NCBI GenBank assembly: GCA_022842725.1
Contig: JALHOZ010000010.1
Span: 1 to 64,000 of the forward strand
Origin: Saprospiraceae bacterium
GTDB lineage: Bacteria > Bacteroidota > Bacteroidia > Chitinophagales > Saprospiraceae
DNA length: 64,000 bases
Direction: 5' to 3'
Shown here: positions 12,100 to 16,974 of the stretch, piece after piece
How the letters are laid out: every line of letters begins with the position of its first letter
How positions within the stretch are numbered: position 1 is the stretch's first letter
Made by a program: the position numbers and the translations under genes
The notes under the pieces: generated by a model
What the model was told of the DNA's origin: nothing
Seen by the model: only the letters and a program-made list of their open reading frames with translations
Database searches by the model: none

Positions 12100-12633
12100 T
12101 TAAAATCTATAGGTAACGCCAAGTTGAGGTAATAAAGCTTGTATTTTTGTATTGTGGCTTGTCATATTGATCAGATTGATTTCACCCAAAATCCCCCATC
12201 GTTCTCCAAACTTATGATGGATACCAAAGTTGCCGCCTGTGATAAAAAAAGGAACTGTAAATGAGGTATTAAACTCGTTTCTTTCTCTGTATACGCCGAC
12301 ATCAATTCCCAGTCGGAGGTCCGTATTTTTGAAAACAGGGTAAATGTACCGTATACCAGATCTGAACATAAATCCTTTAGGAAGGACGTAAGATATCCTG
12401 GAATTGAGCGCAAATCTCGTGGTAAAGGGAACTTCAAGTGAAAATTCAGCATGAATGCCGGTGTACCCGCTTAATCCGGTATGTGCTCCGATGGTCACCT
12501 GAGCTTTGCTGCCTGAAGCCCAAAACAGAACAAGCAATAAAGGGGTGTAAACATTTTTTAGATTTTTGTTACTAAGTGATTTGGTTATCAGCCGAGACCG
12601 TGAATGGGCAAATGTTTGAATTACAGCTTTCAT
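12100..12633 (-). CDS. Small predicted outer-membrane beta-barrel protein
   Basis: This is a 177-residue protein. From the ATG at 12633 the N-terminus carries about 28 polar residues before a hydrophobic signal (YTPLLLVLFWASGSKAQ). A later alternative start codon is therefore possible, though none is an ATG. The mature ~130 residues are short amphipathic strands (FALNSRISYVLPKGFMFRSGIRY, GILGEINLINM) ending in a terminal Phe (GVTYRF), as in eight-stranded barrels. The ATG overlaps the TGA stop of the upstream frameshifted T9SS gene in an ATGA arrangement, so the two are probably translationally coupled. The partner and function are unknown. Confidence 0.65.
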   Translation of the reverse strand: MKAVIQTFAHSRSRLITKSLSNKNLKNVYTPLLLVLFWASGSKAQVTIGAHTGLSGYTGIHAEFSLEVPFTTRFALNSRISYVLPKGFMFRSGIRYIYPVFKNTDLRLGIDVGVYRERNEFNTSFTVPFFITGGNFGIHHKFGERWGILGEINLINMTSHNTKIQALLPQLGVTYRF

Positions 12634-13146
12634 ATTTTAACAATTTTATGATAATGAAAATGTTCTCCATCAAAAAGGCGCAAAATATAAGTCCCGGGTG
12701 GTAAACCAGTTACGTTTATTTCTGAAATACCATCGCCTTGGAGTGATATTTTTTCCATTCCGTTTACACAAAACATTTTGACCTCCCGAATGGGTGATTC
12801 TGAAGAAATCATTATTTTATCATTTGTAGGATTAGGAAATACCTTAGTTTGAAAATCAATGGCTTTTTCATTTGTCGAAACCAGAAGATTAGTAAAACGA
12901 ATTACCCAACCTTCAGGTGGCCACCATTTCACGTTTCCATCTATCCAGTTATCAAGCAATTCAAATCTTTGAAAACTATCGATTTTTAAACACATGATAA
13001 TAAGAAACAAAATATTCGTCTCTATAGGGTACGATTTGGTTGGCCCCTTGCGGTACACCATCAAAATCGATAATTTTGGCATAACGGGTTTGACCTGAAA
13101 GGGGTATAGTACAAAACAGGAAAAAGAAGAAGAGTAAAGGTCGCAT
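12630..13146 (-). pseudogene. Frameshifted short T9SS cargo gene
   Basis: Two overlapping frames make one sensible gene. Frame one starts at the ATG at 13146 with a clear signal peptide (MRPLLFFFFLFCTIPLSGQ) and continues through DFDGVPQGANQIVPYRDEYF to a TAG at 12978-12976. The other frame carries the rest: IDSFQRFELLDNWIDGNVKWW and then a complete T9SS type A sorting domain (FPNPTNDKI, LPPGTYILRL, HKIVKI). Removing one A from the five-A run just before the stop would join them into a protein of about 170 residues. That is very short for T9SS cargo, so an internal deletion is likely too. The cause could be real decay, a sequencing error in the A-run, or slippage. Its stop overlaps the next gene's start (ATGA). 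Confidence 0.7.
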
Positions 13147-13198
13147 TCTGTTGCAAATTGGTGGTTCTTTATGTACATTTCAAAAGAATACAATAAAA

Positions 13199-15793
13199 TT
13201 ACAAACTTTTTCTGACACCAACCAAAATACTTCCGGGAAATCTATTAAATGTTTTAAATCCTACAAACTCATCGTTAAATAACCCTTCAGAAATAGTCAT
13301 GGGTTGAATATTGGTGATATCAATACCTTGAAACATCAATGTCCATTGGTTTTTTAATGTAAATTCCCAAATGTAATGTAATTTCACAAAACGATTTCTG
13401 ACATCAAAGTTTTTTGAAAACTGTTGGTTCCATGAGAATTCGTGTTCCATTCTGATTTTGTTTTTTTGAAAAATTAATTTTCCGGATCCTTCCAAAGTTC
13501 TGAATCCATAAGCCACCAATTCGTTTCTGAAAGATTGTTGATTACTCTTCAGCATCAGCTCGATGTTAGCCATTTTTTTATATTTTGACGAAAGTAAAAA
13601 GGAAAGGCCAATATTTTGAGTTTCAAAATTCCGGCTTTCGTCAATCATTTGATTTTGTCCTGTATACATGGCTTTGACATTCATTACCCAATGTTTATTG
13701 AGGGTATACTCAAAACTGTTATTGGACAAAAACATTAAAGATCTTTTTGCTCTGAAATACAACATCAGAATATATTGTTGTTCGTAAACAGAACCCGCCA
13801 GAACCGGATCTGTTATATCACTGTATTCAAACTGCAATTGATACCTTTTTTTGTCCCCCGGCATTAAAAAAACATACAGCAAGGAAGCTGTTTTGGAAGT
13901 AACTCCTGTTGAAGAAGATGTTCCGCCACTTTGAATGCTTTGTCCGTCTGTGATATCTTCTGTTTTTCGGACTGTTGTCTGACCCGGCAGATTTTTATCT
14001 AATTTACCCCTTACCAATATGTAATGAAAACGGGAAAAATTAAACCTCACTTTCGCCGTTAATCCGACAAATGTTTTGTCAGTGCGACCTGCCCATTCAT
14101 CTTTTCTATGGATGTTTCTCGCAGATCCTGATAAAGTCATCCACCATACATTCGTTTTAAATTCGTAAGAAATTCCGGGTTCATGGATGATATCTGTTAT
14201 GGACTGCCGTCCTTCCTCAATGCCTCTCAATACAGGATTCCGGGATATATTAAATATTTCTTCCGGATTTTTATAATGATAAAAAAGTCCGAAACGATGT
14301 TTTTTAAATTCTTTTTCCAACAAAAATGAAGAATTAAAATGTCGGCTCGTCCTGATATTTTGTTGATTAAGACTGGTTACATTTTCATTAAATATACCGA
14401 AAGAATCCTGAAAGGTCAGTTCTCCGGAATTTCGTTTGTAAAAGTAGTTTTGTGAAATCTGATAATTCCATTTTCCTTTTAAAGTTCCCGATAAATAGTA
14501 TTGAGGAAATATGGAATAATGGCTTTTTTTACTGGATAAATGATTCGAAAATAATCTTCTGTCTAATGTTCCTAAAAGTTTACTTCCTTCCCGGATATTA
14601 CCCCATTCCATCGGAACTTCGATCTCAAGATGAAGATTTTTAGAAAGCGTCAGTCGGTTATTTAACACAGCGTATACCAACGGGGTTTTTTGATCACCCT
14701 GGGTATTTCCGGTGATATTGTTTAGCGAAAGAAAATAGTTTTTTGAAAAAAAATGTCCCAATTCTCTTGATGCATAATAACCTGTGACAGAAAATTGAGT
14801 GGCTACATATTTATTTGGCTCGTGATTCCATGCTGAAGACACCACTGATTCCCTGTTTTTGAGGAGATCCTGAGGTTTGACAAATGACTCAGGCAACAGG
14901 GCATCAATATCTCCACCTGCCTGCGTAAGGCTCCTTGCCAGAGAAGATTGTAATCCCAGAAAATCCATGGCAGTAAATGCCGGCTGTCCCGTGTTGTCAG
15001 ATCTGATAAATGTATTTCCAGAAGTCTTCTTTCCTGCAAAAAACTGATTGGTTTTTAACACCGCCCTGTCTTTATACCCAGCCAATAAAGTGGCGTCACC
15101 TTTTAATGTATTTTTTGCTTCTTCTTTCAACACTATATTCATGGCAATCAAATCTGAATACCTACCGGATAAAATATCTCTGAAAGATTTATATTGTTCA
15201 ATGACCTGAATTTTTGCCACATCTTCAATCAGAAAACTTTCACCGGTCAGCCTGTGTTGATTTTGTAATATATCTTTCCCCTCCAGCAATAGTTTATCAA
15301 TTTTTCGGTTGTTGTAATAAATCTGACCTTCATGGTCAACAGATATTCCGGGCATGGAAGTCAACACATCCCGTAAAGTTCTGTCACCACTTTTTGAATA
15401 AGCTTTTACATCATAAGTCAAAGTGTCACCCGACAAAACAAGCGCGATTCGTCTCTCTTTGATCTCTACTTCCGGCAATACCTGTTGACTGAGTGGCAAT
15501 ATCAAACGGTGTACCATCTCAGGATTTAAAAACAAAGATATTTCAGAATAAACCTCATTAAATCCCATTGCTTCAAATTTTACGACCACTTCATTTTGTG
15601 GTAATTTTATATTCCAAATGCCATTTGAATCCGTCACTGTTATAGCCAATATCCTGGAAGAGTCAGGAGACAGGATATAAACCATAACATCAGAAACCGG
15701 CTTCAGGTCAGGGTCTGTAATTTGTCCTCCCGCAGTCTGAGAAAAAGCAGATTGATATAAAAACAAAAAACAAAAAATGGCCGGATATTTCAC
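13199..15793 (-). CDS. TonB-receptor-like outer-membrane protein with carboxypeptidase-regulatory-like N-terminal domain
   Basis: This is an 864-residue protein with a signal peptide at 1-18 (FLFLYQSAFSQ). A CarboxypepD_reg-like beta-sandwich follows at about 20-105 (GGQITDPDLKPVSDVMVYI), and a plug-like region at about 125-215 (TLRDVLTSMPGISVDHEGQIYYNN, LLLEGKDIL). About 600 residues of barrel strands end in VGVRKSL. This architecture, without a TonB box that I can identify, is the type often found beside GLPGLI-family genes. Its start is 82 bases after the GLPGLI gene. The cargo or substrate is unknown. It may be a receptor or exporter for the small cysteine-containing peptide encoded upstream; that is speculation. 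Confidence 0.82.
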   Translation of the reverse strand: MKYPAIFCFLFLYQSAFSQTAGGQITDPDLKPVSDVMVYILSPDSSRILAITVTDSNGIWNIKLPQNEVVVKFEAMGFNEVYSEISLFLNPEMVHRLILPLSQQVLPEVEIKERRIALVLSGDTLTYDVKAYSKSGDRTLRDVLTSMPGISVDHEGQIYYNNRKIDKLLLEGKDILQNQHRLTGESFLIEDVAKIQVIEQYKSFRDILSGRYSDLIAMNIVLKEEAKNTLKGDATLLAGYKDRAVLKTNQFFAGKKTSGNTFIRSDNTGQPAFTAMDFLGLQSSLARSLTQAGGDIDALLPESFVKPQDLLKNRESVVSSAWNHEPNKYVATQFSVTGYYASRELGHFFSKNYFLSLNNITGNTQGDQKTPLVYAVLNNRLTLSKNLHLEIEVPMEWGNIREGSKLLGTLDRRLFSNHLSSKKSHYSIFPQYYLSGTLKGKWNYQISQNYFYKRNSGELTFQDSFGIFNENVTSLNQQNIRTSRHFNSSFLLEKEFKKHRFGLFYHYKNPEEIFNISRNPVLRGIEEGRQSITDIIHEPGISYEFKTNVWWMTLSGSARNIHRKDEWAGRTDKTFVGLTAKVRFNFSRFHYILVRGKLDKNLPGQTTVRKTEDITDGQSIQSGGTSSSTGVTSKTASLLYVFLMPGDKKRYQLQFEYSDITDPVLAGSVYEQQYILMLYFRAKRSLMFLSNNSFEYTLNKHWVMNVKAMYTGQNQMIDESRNFETQNIGLSFLLSSKYKKMANIELMLKSNQQSFRNELVAYGFRTLEGSGKLIFQKNKIRMEHEFSWNQQFSKNFDVRNRFVKLHYIWEFTLKNQWTLMFQGIDITNIQPMTISEGLFNDEFVGFKTFNRFPGSILVGVRKSL

Positions 15794-15875
15794 TTGTCTA
15801 CGATTATAAGATAAACCTTTTTTACAGGAAATCAGGTCAGAAAATTCAGAACATCAAACTCAAATATATCAATAT

Positions 15876-16538
15876 TTATTTTGATATTCCTGCTAATTTA
15901 TCCTTTTTATACTTTTCGAAAGCTTTTTCGGACAACCATTGATGAATCTCAGGAATACGTAACGTAAATGTAGAAGGTAATTTTTCAATTTTCACCATTT
16001 CAAGCACGGTATTTCCTGATTCAAGCCTGATGATCAACCCGGGCAGACCACAAAAATTTTTAGGTCCGTCATAAAGACTGATTTCATCTGTAAAATAGGC
16101 TGTATATAATACATCATTCAGTTGAATGGTTGCCTTGCGCGTTTTATATTGACCAATTTGTTTTGTTTCATTGGTAACAGTCCAATCGTCAGCCACCAAT
16201 AATGGTGATTTAGTACCTGCCACACAATTGTGTGTAAGTTTATCGTACAAGGCCATACTCTTTGTATCAAAATTTTTAAAGTAAACCAGATCCATCACTT
16301 TTGATGAATTAAAAGCAATATTCCCACTATGTATAGTAGTGTCTTTATAAAAAATGGATTGGTTTCCATTTGTTTGTAATACATAATATCGTTTGGTGTT
16401 TTCAATAGAATTTTTAACATCACTGCTGAAACTTTTTAACTCCGTGGTTGACAGATTTACTTTTTCATTGTACGTAACCTGAAAATAATTTGTACTACCT
16501 GTGCTAAAGATTAGTATAATAAATATTATATAGATCAT
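15876..16538 (-). CDS. GLPGLI family protein
   Basis: This 220-residue protein starts at the ATG at 16538; a GTG lies one codon earlier. A hydrophobic signal or anchor (IYIIFIILIFSTGS) covers residues 2-16. The family-defining hexapeptide GLPGLI is present at residues 164-169 inside NFCGLPGLIIRLE, preceded by a tract ending DEISLYDGP. Cys106 and Cys163 may pair. The family is confined, as far as I know, to Bacteroidota and has no established biochemical function. Members commonly sit next to a TonB-receptor-like protein, as here, with the barrel gene 82 bases downstream. A tiny secreted-peptide gene lies 245 bases upstream on the same strand. Confidence 0.92.
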   Translation of the reverse strand: MIYIIFIILIFSTGSTNYFQVTYNEKVNLSTTELKSFSSDVKNSIENTKRYYVLQTNGNQSIFYKDTTIHSGNIAFNSSKVMDLVYFKNFDTKSMALYDKLTHNCVAGTKSPLLVADDWTVTNETKQIGQYKTRKATIQLNDVLYTAYFTDEISLYDGPKNFCGLPGLIIRLESGNTVLEMVKIEKLPSTFTLRIPEIHQWLSEKAFEKYKKDKLAGISK

Positions 16539-16785
16539 CACCTTTTATTTTTTTAAAATGATTAATTTATTGTTTTCTTCCGAAGCTTAAAATTTTTAAA
16601 ACCTAGTATTTTATAATTTATTTTTGACAACTTGTTTATTATTTACATAATTTAAAACATACATATAATCAACCAAAACTTTATATAAATAAAAATACTT
16701 AAAAATATATCTAAATTACATTTAATGGACAGATTTATATATAAAAAGTGGAATTCGCACTTTAGTGCGAATTCCTGTAAATAAA

Positions 16786-16974
16786 TTAACACGGCCCACC
16801 GTAATTCTCTACAGTACCATTTTCATATACAATGGTTACTGCACCCGGACATCCATCATCATAAACAGTAGCTTTGCCATTACCGTCAATGTAAATCAAC
16901 CACTCCGGAGAAACGTTGATTGCATTAAGTGAAATTGTAAAGAAAAATCCCAAAACAAACAAAAACTTTTTCAT
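16786..16974 (-). CDS. Small secreted two-cysteine peptide (62 residues)
   Basis: MKKFLFVLGFFFTISLNA is a textbook signal peptide. The mature part of about 43 residues is acidic and contains two cysteines, Cys42 and the very last residue Cys62. Two halves look related: IYIDGNGKATVYDDGC (27-42) and IVYENGTVENYGGPC (48-62) share an I-x-x-(D/E)-x-G pattern, then Tyr, Gly and Cys. A disulfide-linked mini-domain is plausible. I do not recognise the family. The gene stands upstream of the GLPGLI and TonB-like genes on the same strand. It is preceded by a leader region with two hairpins. It could be a peptide signal, a bacteriocin-like product or a structural surface peptide; no evidence decides between these. 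Confidence 0.7.
   Translation of the reverse strand: MKKFLFVLGFFFTISLNAINVSPEWLIYIDGNGKATVYDDGCPGAVTIVYENGTVENYGGPC

Follow-up and report, generated by a model that had tools for sequence, protein, structure and literature searches.

A small secreted cysteine peptide, a GLPGLI family protein and an outer-membrane barrel: a candidate peptide-secretion cassette of Saprospiraceae

The peptide locus and its recurrence

We analysed a window of 64,000 nucleotides (positions 1 to 64,000 of contig JALHOZ010000010.1, assembly GCA_022842725.1) from the 4.6 Mb, 87-contig genome of a Saprospiraceae bacterium, and focused on three adjacent genes of its minus strand that encode a small secreted peptide, a GLPGLI family protein and an outer-membrane barrel protein. 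The peptide gene (16786..16974) is an open reading frame (ORF) for 62 residues with an ATG start and with homologues beside other GLPGLI genes, in which a signal peptide (16921-16974, delimited by eye) is followed by the mature part (16789-16920) and the stop codon (16786-16788). On the same strand, positions 16750..16775 form a terminator- or attenuator-like hairpin with a perfect 11-bp stem and a 4-nt loop, followed by CTTTTTATAT. The GLPGLI gene (15876..16541) encodes 221 residues from a GTG start, an ATG lying one codon later, and the barrel gene (13199..15793) encodes 864 residues with an N-terminal CarboxypepD_reg-like domain and a plug-like region. A preliminary description of this DNA had already grouped the three genes as one same-strand module, and its positions, strand and lengths were all correct; the grouping itself holds in that the trio recurs as a unit in related genomes, with an adjacency exceeding chance. 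It had also described the first product as a secreted peptide ending in cysteine, in agreement with the lysines at its start, the hydrophobic stretch, the LNA cleavage-like site (by eye) and the final Cys residue.

The product of the middle gene scored 116.6 bits against TIGR01200 (curated cut-off 50), its residues 3-215 aligning with positions 5-228 of the 229-position profile; by this match it is a member of the GLPGLI family (TIGR01200/PF09697, Porph_ging). Among the genomes searched, members of the family were detected in 222 of 298 from Saprospiraceae and in 15 of 61 from a phylum sample; genome G131 carries 9 copies and genome G589 carries 12. The available parts of the literature naming the family give no function for these proteins, and searches of the open-access literature in PMC returned nothing for Porph_ging or TIGR01200, nor on the module in combination with Bacteroidetes, Saprospiraceae or bacteriocin.

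The single peptide sequence was searched against the 298 Saprospiraceae genomes, which yielded short-ORF relatives, and profile A1 was built from nine of them (G000, G069, G098, G128, G131, G138, G142, G289 and G294). With no more than 20 candidates scored per genome, this profile gave strong short-ORF matches in at least 13 of the 298 genomes, namely the nine source genomes and G026, G041, G067 and G266. In a fourteenth genome, G143, the peptide was found by its position, and the 14 peptide-bearing genomes span ten genera. Altogether 19 loci were compared, 17 found with the peptide (including L109, a weak profile row at E 0.04) and two reached without the peptide profile, that of G143 through the GLPGLI profile and L192 through the barrel profile. 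A GLPGLI gene comes next on the same strand in all 19. Ten of the corresponding proteins were rescored against TIGR01200; eight exceeded the curated cut-off and the other two, both from G098, fell marginally under it (49.9 and 47.7 bits). A CarboxypepD/TonB-type barrel gene then follows in 16 of the 19 loci (confirmed by profile at L105, L168 and L192), and in the remaining three (L091, L092 and L094) the contig finishes before any barrel could show. Small peptide genes similar to that of the window thus recur beside GLPGLI/barrel pairs and, on this sequence evidence, the 62-residue ORF is a real gene and the peptide family is real.

Peptide-GLPGLI pairs stand in tandem at L091 and L168; near position 4463 of L168, a second copy of the G143 peptide has the same signal-peptide core as the first and no in-frame ATG at the expected place. 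When the profile was applied to the whole order (396 genomes), no convincing member was found outside Saprospiraceae, the rows obtained there (21-25 bits, ORFs of at least 125 residues) being taken as signal-peptide matches and not counted. Three further rows were discarded upon reading the DNA: L098 (G279), an ORF of 1136 residues matched at E 9.8e-7, L099 and L100. L110 (contig C91 of G222), whose member-like start is cut by the contig end, was not counted either; a signal peptide and then KPYSPNWV can be read there, and it is probably a further member of the family. A pattern search for the window peptide in GTDB contigs returned 593 pattern stretches, none of which was confirmed.

The peptide, its partners and the intervening hairpin

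Alignment of the 19 mature peptides gave a consensus of PxW, then DDG with a Cys soon after, then a late Cys, typically PxW...DDG..C...GxC. The late Cys and a single D are the sole invariant positions. PxW is present in 10 of the 19 peptides and DDG in 16; 16 have exactly two Cys, and all have at least one. The terminal Cys seen in the window therefore recurs across the family, being the very last residue in 12 of the 19 peptides and lying within the final three in 18. Whether the 62-codon frame is selected as protein had been left to be checked; the frame is conserved, and Nei-Gojobori (NG86) estimates of nonsynonymous over synonymous divergence (dN/dS) for three pairs of mature parts were 0.33/saturated, 0.72/1.82 and 0.43/1.30, so that dN is lower than dS in two pairs and the third is saturated in dS, the ratios being rough because dS is high or saturated.

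AlphaFold2 predicted the peptide as four strands in two beta-hairpins (residues 25-29/35-38 and 45-50/55-59), with a mean predicted local distance difference test (pLDDT) of 75 and a predicted template modelling score (pTM) of 0.47. The two-half, repeat-like design put forward in the preliminary description thus finds a counterpart in the two predicted hairpins, whereas a duplication of the sequence is unsupported (4 of 18 residues identical, z of 1.49 for the window peptide, and z above 2 in just 4 of 20 peptides). The two Cys, one closing each half, are possibly joined by a disulfide. As the same description had stated, the peptide is not recognisable: the model had no match in the PDB at E <=0.001 with Foldseek, and Pfam and NCBIfam matched the sequence no better than by chance, with no type IX secretion system C-terminal sorting domain (Por_Secre_tail). 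Similarly, the 19 family peptides and six other peptides gave only scattered weak matches to NVEALA or other NCBIfam or Pfam peptide families.

The closest fold to the AlphaFold2 model of the GLPGLI protein (pLDDT 86.9, 16 sequences in the input) was that of the PNGase F-II NBL domain, with a Foldseek E of 5.3e-10 and a Z of 16.9-17.7; the available part of the published description gives NBL as a domain of unknown function (PMC9522356). The match covers this N-terminal domain alone, the PNGase catalytic domain being absent from the 221-residue protein. Weaker matches were obtained with VioE (Z 9.1), ependymin-related proteins, LolA (Z up to 8.6; Foldseek E 1.3e-5) and RseB (Z 8.3), the Z values for LolA and RseB being close to what the tool describes as common, and Pfam searched at E 0.1 returned no LolA family for the window protein. 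The modelled shape and the genomic place of the gene suggest that the GLPGLI protein may be a carrier. In the GLPGLI tree, a single branch (support 100/96) splits 20 proteins of peptide loci from 22 canonical proteins, the latter picked by high score.

The CarboxypepD_reg match of the window barrel (E 4e-05) is under the Pfam cut-off; in an hhalign comparison, window-type barrels and barrels that follow ordinary GLPGLI genes aligned across the N-terminal domain and the plug-like region (E 2.1e-53). In the barrels of other GLPGLI loci, Plug was matched in 2 of 5, at E 0.005-0.008, below its cut-off. GLPGLI and barrel distances correlate across 14 modules (Mantel r 0.70, p 1e-4), species history not being separated out in this or the other Mantel correlations. 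Both the predicted GLPGLI fold and the barrel homology agree with the order initially proposed, namely a peptide, an envelope partner and an outer-membrane receptor or exporter. Directly 3' of the barrel gene, on the minus strand, lie two ORFs in different frames, one (12630-13193) bearing a type IX sorting tail and the other (12976-13146) starting much like a signal peptide; together they look like a single secreted protein broken across two frames. Rfam detected one tRNA in the window.

The hairpin at 16750-16775, with its T run, had a folding z of -5.03, and none of 200 shuffles was as low. In a set of 18 peptide-GLPGLI gaps, from which L168 was left out, 13 had a z <= -3.78 and one a z of -2.43 (median -4.26), the hairpin being weak in four (L097, L101, L106 and L109). 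By comparison, 23 stretches upstream of canonical GLPGLI genes had a median z of -0.33, and two of the 23 reached about -5.9 (Mann-Whitney p 2.5e-4, the sequence lengths being unequal between the two sets). A further set of 15 gaps comprised that of L192 and 14 that follow other peptides; eight of them had a z <= -4.06. Because the lengths of the sets differ and terminators are common after genes, the hairpin is best read as showing a gene end after the peptide rather than a special mechanism, and the presence of this terminator-like stem-loop between the two genes makes it uncertain that peptide and GLPGLI share a transcript. Rfam had no match in L091, L106, L168 or L170.

Other peptides before GLPGLI genes and a shared leader

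Upstream peptides were counted as short ORFs with a signal-like start (simple hydrophobicity rule) and at least two Cys, within 500 nt. In the loci read, such a peptide precedes 9 of 66 GLPGLI-first genes versus 4 of 326 other genes (Fisher p 2.7e-5, count based on hidden Markov models), the former rate being inflated by the way in which the third of three sets of GLPGLI genes was picked. None of the 26 highest-scoring genes has one, and the figures are 2 of 12 in a second set and 7 of 28 in the third set, which comes from 20 genomes chosen mainly for multiple or low-scoring GLPGLI copies, some of them known module carriers; apart from this choice of genomes, the 66 genes were sampled without regard to peptides. 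Most of the peptides in this count belong to other, unrelated families. They comprise a Cys-rich group (L171/L219, L206, L208, L217, L223 and L200), a CC peptide (L154/L170) and a 70-residue pair around one GLPGLI gene at L226, where related-looking secreted peptides lie on either side of the gene (1241-1453 and 2361-2573) and the second precedes a barrel gene. A barrel is also present in the eight of eight Saprospiraceae loci with unrelated small Cys peptides that were scanned.

The peptide of G589, one of two found before GLPGLI genes of the phylum sample, was searched against 148 genomes of its own family, a different one from Saprospiraceae. It gave six matches in six genomes of four genera, the query included, and a GLPGLI gene comes directly after all six, at gaps of 28-74 nt. 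At L264 and L265 the peptide is followed by two tandem GLPGLI genes, and the mature part at L265 looks, by eye, like the Saprospiraceae Cys-rich peptides. At L259 (G203), a Cys-free short secreted ORF lies 62 nt upstream of the GLPGLI gene; the Cys rule used in the count may be too strict.

Seven places in G131 carry one and the same 38-nt sequence, which begins at the start codon; it also occurs once in G026, a genome of the same genus, and is absent from the other five genomes searched, with up to 3 mismatches allowed. About 190 nt upstream of this leader are also alike where the sequence extends that far. The cargo is readable in six of the seven G131 copies (four peptides with two or three Cys, a 112-residue protein with 7 Cys and a 506-residue protein), the seventh being cut by the contig end. 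Among these G131 copies and that of G026, the nucleotide identity of the signal peptides is 80-100%, whereas the amino-acid identity of the mature parts is 21-56%. The leader heads differing secreted genes at L091, L092, L106, L171 and L172 in G131 and at L094 in G026; several contigs finish at or near leader copies, and no GLPGLI gene follows the gene of the 506-residue cargo in the stretch read at L172.

A tentative secretion model, its rivals and known systems

We tentatively propose, as a reading whose chance we put close to even but short of it, that the trio is a cassette dedicated to the secretion of a small folded peptide and made up of an exported peptide, a periplasmic carrier and an outer-membrane conduit that would share a common role. 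A predicted Sec-type signal would take the peptide to the periplasm, and the mature cargo would be a mini-protein of about 44 residues with two beta-hairpins. The peptide gene would be the first cistron, closed by a hairpin that may act as a leaky terminator, so that more peptide would be made than partner protein. On its predicted fold, the GLPGLI protein would be a periplasmic half-barrel 'bowl' of the NBL/LolA/RseB shape that escorts the peptide, and the barrel, of the CarboxypepD/TonB type by homology, would move it across the outer membrane. Transport would most likely be outwards, a direction favoured because the TonB-dependent transporter Oar is required for PopC secretion in Myxococcus, as stated in the available part of PMC6434023. 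Since the leader stays fixed while its cargo changes, and since peptide-GLPGLI pairs also occur in tandem, the released peptides may act between cells, in antagonism or recognition. More broadly, and at a chance that we place somewhat below even, GLPGLI proteins, a family of Bacteroidota, may be, or may include, general periplasmic bowl-shaped carriers for small secreted Cys peptides, each of them paired with a peptide from among many unrelated and rapidly changing ones, and in many cases also with a TonB-type barrel, which would constitute an undescribed peptide-secretion system.

Several observations weigh against the secretion cassette. Most GLPGLI-first genes (57 of 66) lack such a peptide within 500 nt, so that the GLPGLI/barrel pair needs no adjacent peptide; the same is true of 31 of the 33 readable GLPGLI genes of the phylum sample (one of them added from G203), two having such a peptide, and in G037 and G162 high-scoring GLPGLI genes of the peptide-linked type have no visible upstream peptide. 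No barrel was found in the short flanks of any of the six loci of the G589 peptide family. The LolA and RseB similarities are close to the common level of the comparison tool, and Plug was matched in only 1 of 13 module barrels, at E 0.059, below the Pfam cut-off. Five of the 18 gaps and seven of the 15 further gaps lack a strong hairpin, while a strong terminator could place the peptide and the GLPGLI/barrel pair on separate transcripts. Finally, peptide distances are not significantly correlated with GLPGLI distances (r 0.20, p 0.11) or with barrel distances (r 0.10, p 0.28) across the 14 modules, which is either evidence against a tight cognate pairing or the result of saturation in short peptides.

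That peptide and GLPGLI do not co-diverge significantly also counts against a toxin-immunity arrangement, in which the peptide would be bacteriocin-like, the GLPGLI protein its periplasmic immunity or neutralising protein, tandem GLPGLI genes without a peptide orphan immunity genes, and the barrel an exporter or unrelated. The cargo varying behind the fixed leader in G131, the tandem pairs at L091 and L168 and the multiple GLPGLI copies of G131 and G589 speak for this arrangement, but the absence of such a peptide from all 26 high-scoring GLPGLI genes and the continuation of 27 of 31 high-scoring GLPGLI loci into a barrel gene (by reading) better suit a transport pair, and we consider it unlikely, if worth keeping in view. 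TonB-type barrels are mostly importers, and the peptide could be a secreted scavenger whose acidic DDG (16 of 19) and Cys (19 of 19) bind a metal or another ligand, to be re-imported loaded by the barrel and received by the GLPGLI protein in the periplasm. This retrieval seems quite improbable to us, since the DDG..C pattern is not seen, by eye, in the other peptide families that occupy this position and nothing in the data points to metal regulation or a ligand.

The co-divergence result, the hairpin separating the peptide from the GLPGLI gene and the many GLPGLI genes counted without such a peptide would also suit a mere neighbourhood, the peptide being an independent secreted factor whose gene has a terminator of its own and the GLPGLI protein and barrel an unrelated envelope pair. 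To this we give little credence, because the adjacency recurs across ten genera for this peptide family, is also seen with peptides of unrelated families and spans two bacterial families, and several hairpin-bearing gaps of 50-100 nt would leave little space for a second promoter.

The recurring trio suggests that the large GLPGLI family may handle small secreted peptides. If GLPGLI proteins do carry such peptides, a long-open family gains a directly testable role, and several families of secreted mini-proteins, unmatched by the Pfam and NCBIfam versions used, are brought to light. Among known proteins, PNGase F-II would share the NBL fold with the GLPGLI protein and differs by its catalytic domain, and the LolA and RseB half-barrels are weakly similar to its predicted fold, with no LolA match in Pfam. 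Bacteroidetes graspetide loci likewise combine a small fast-evolving peptide with a TonB-receptor-related protein, which the accessible part of PMC8939145 proposes as an exporter. Unlike in graspetide and other ribosomally synthesised and post-translationally modified peptide (RiPP) loci, the leader of the window peptide looks like a Sec signal, and no peptide-modifying enzyme was found among the nine neighbours scanned, four on one side and five on the other. The N-terminal extension of Oar is a CarboxypepD-type domain. The Oar/PopC pair differs from the trio in that PopC is a protease without a signal peptide and in that the part of PMC6434023 available describes no GLPGLI-type partner; Oar is a TonB-type barrel with an N-terminal extension and a plug, to which the module barrels with their plug-like region would correspond, and it provides a precedent for export (PMC6434023).

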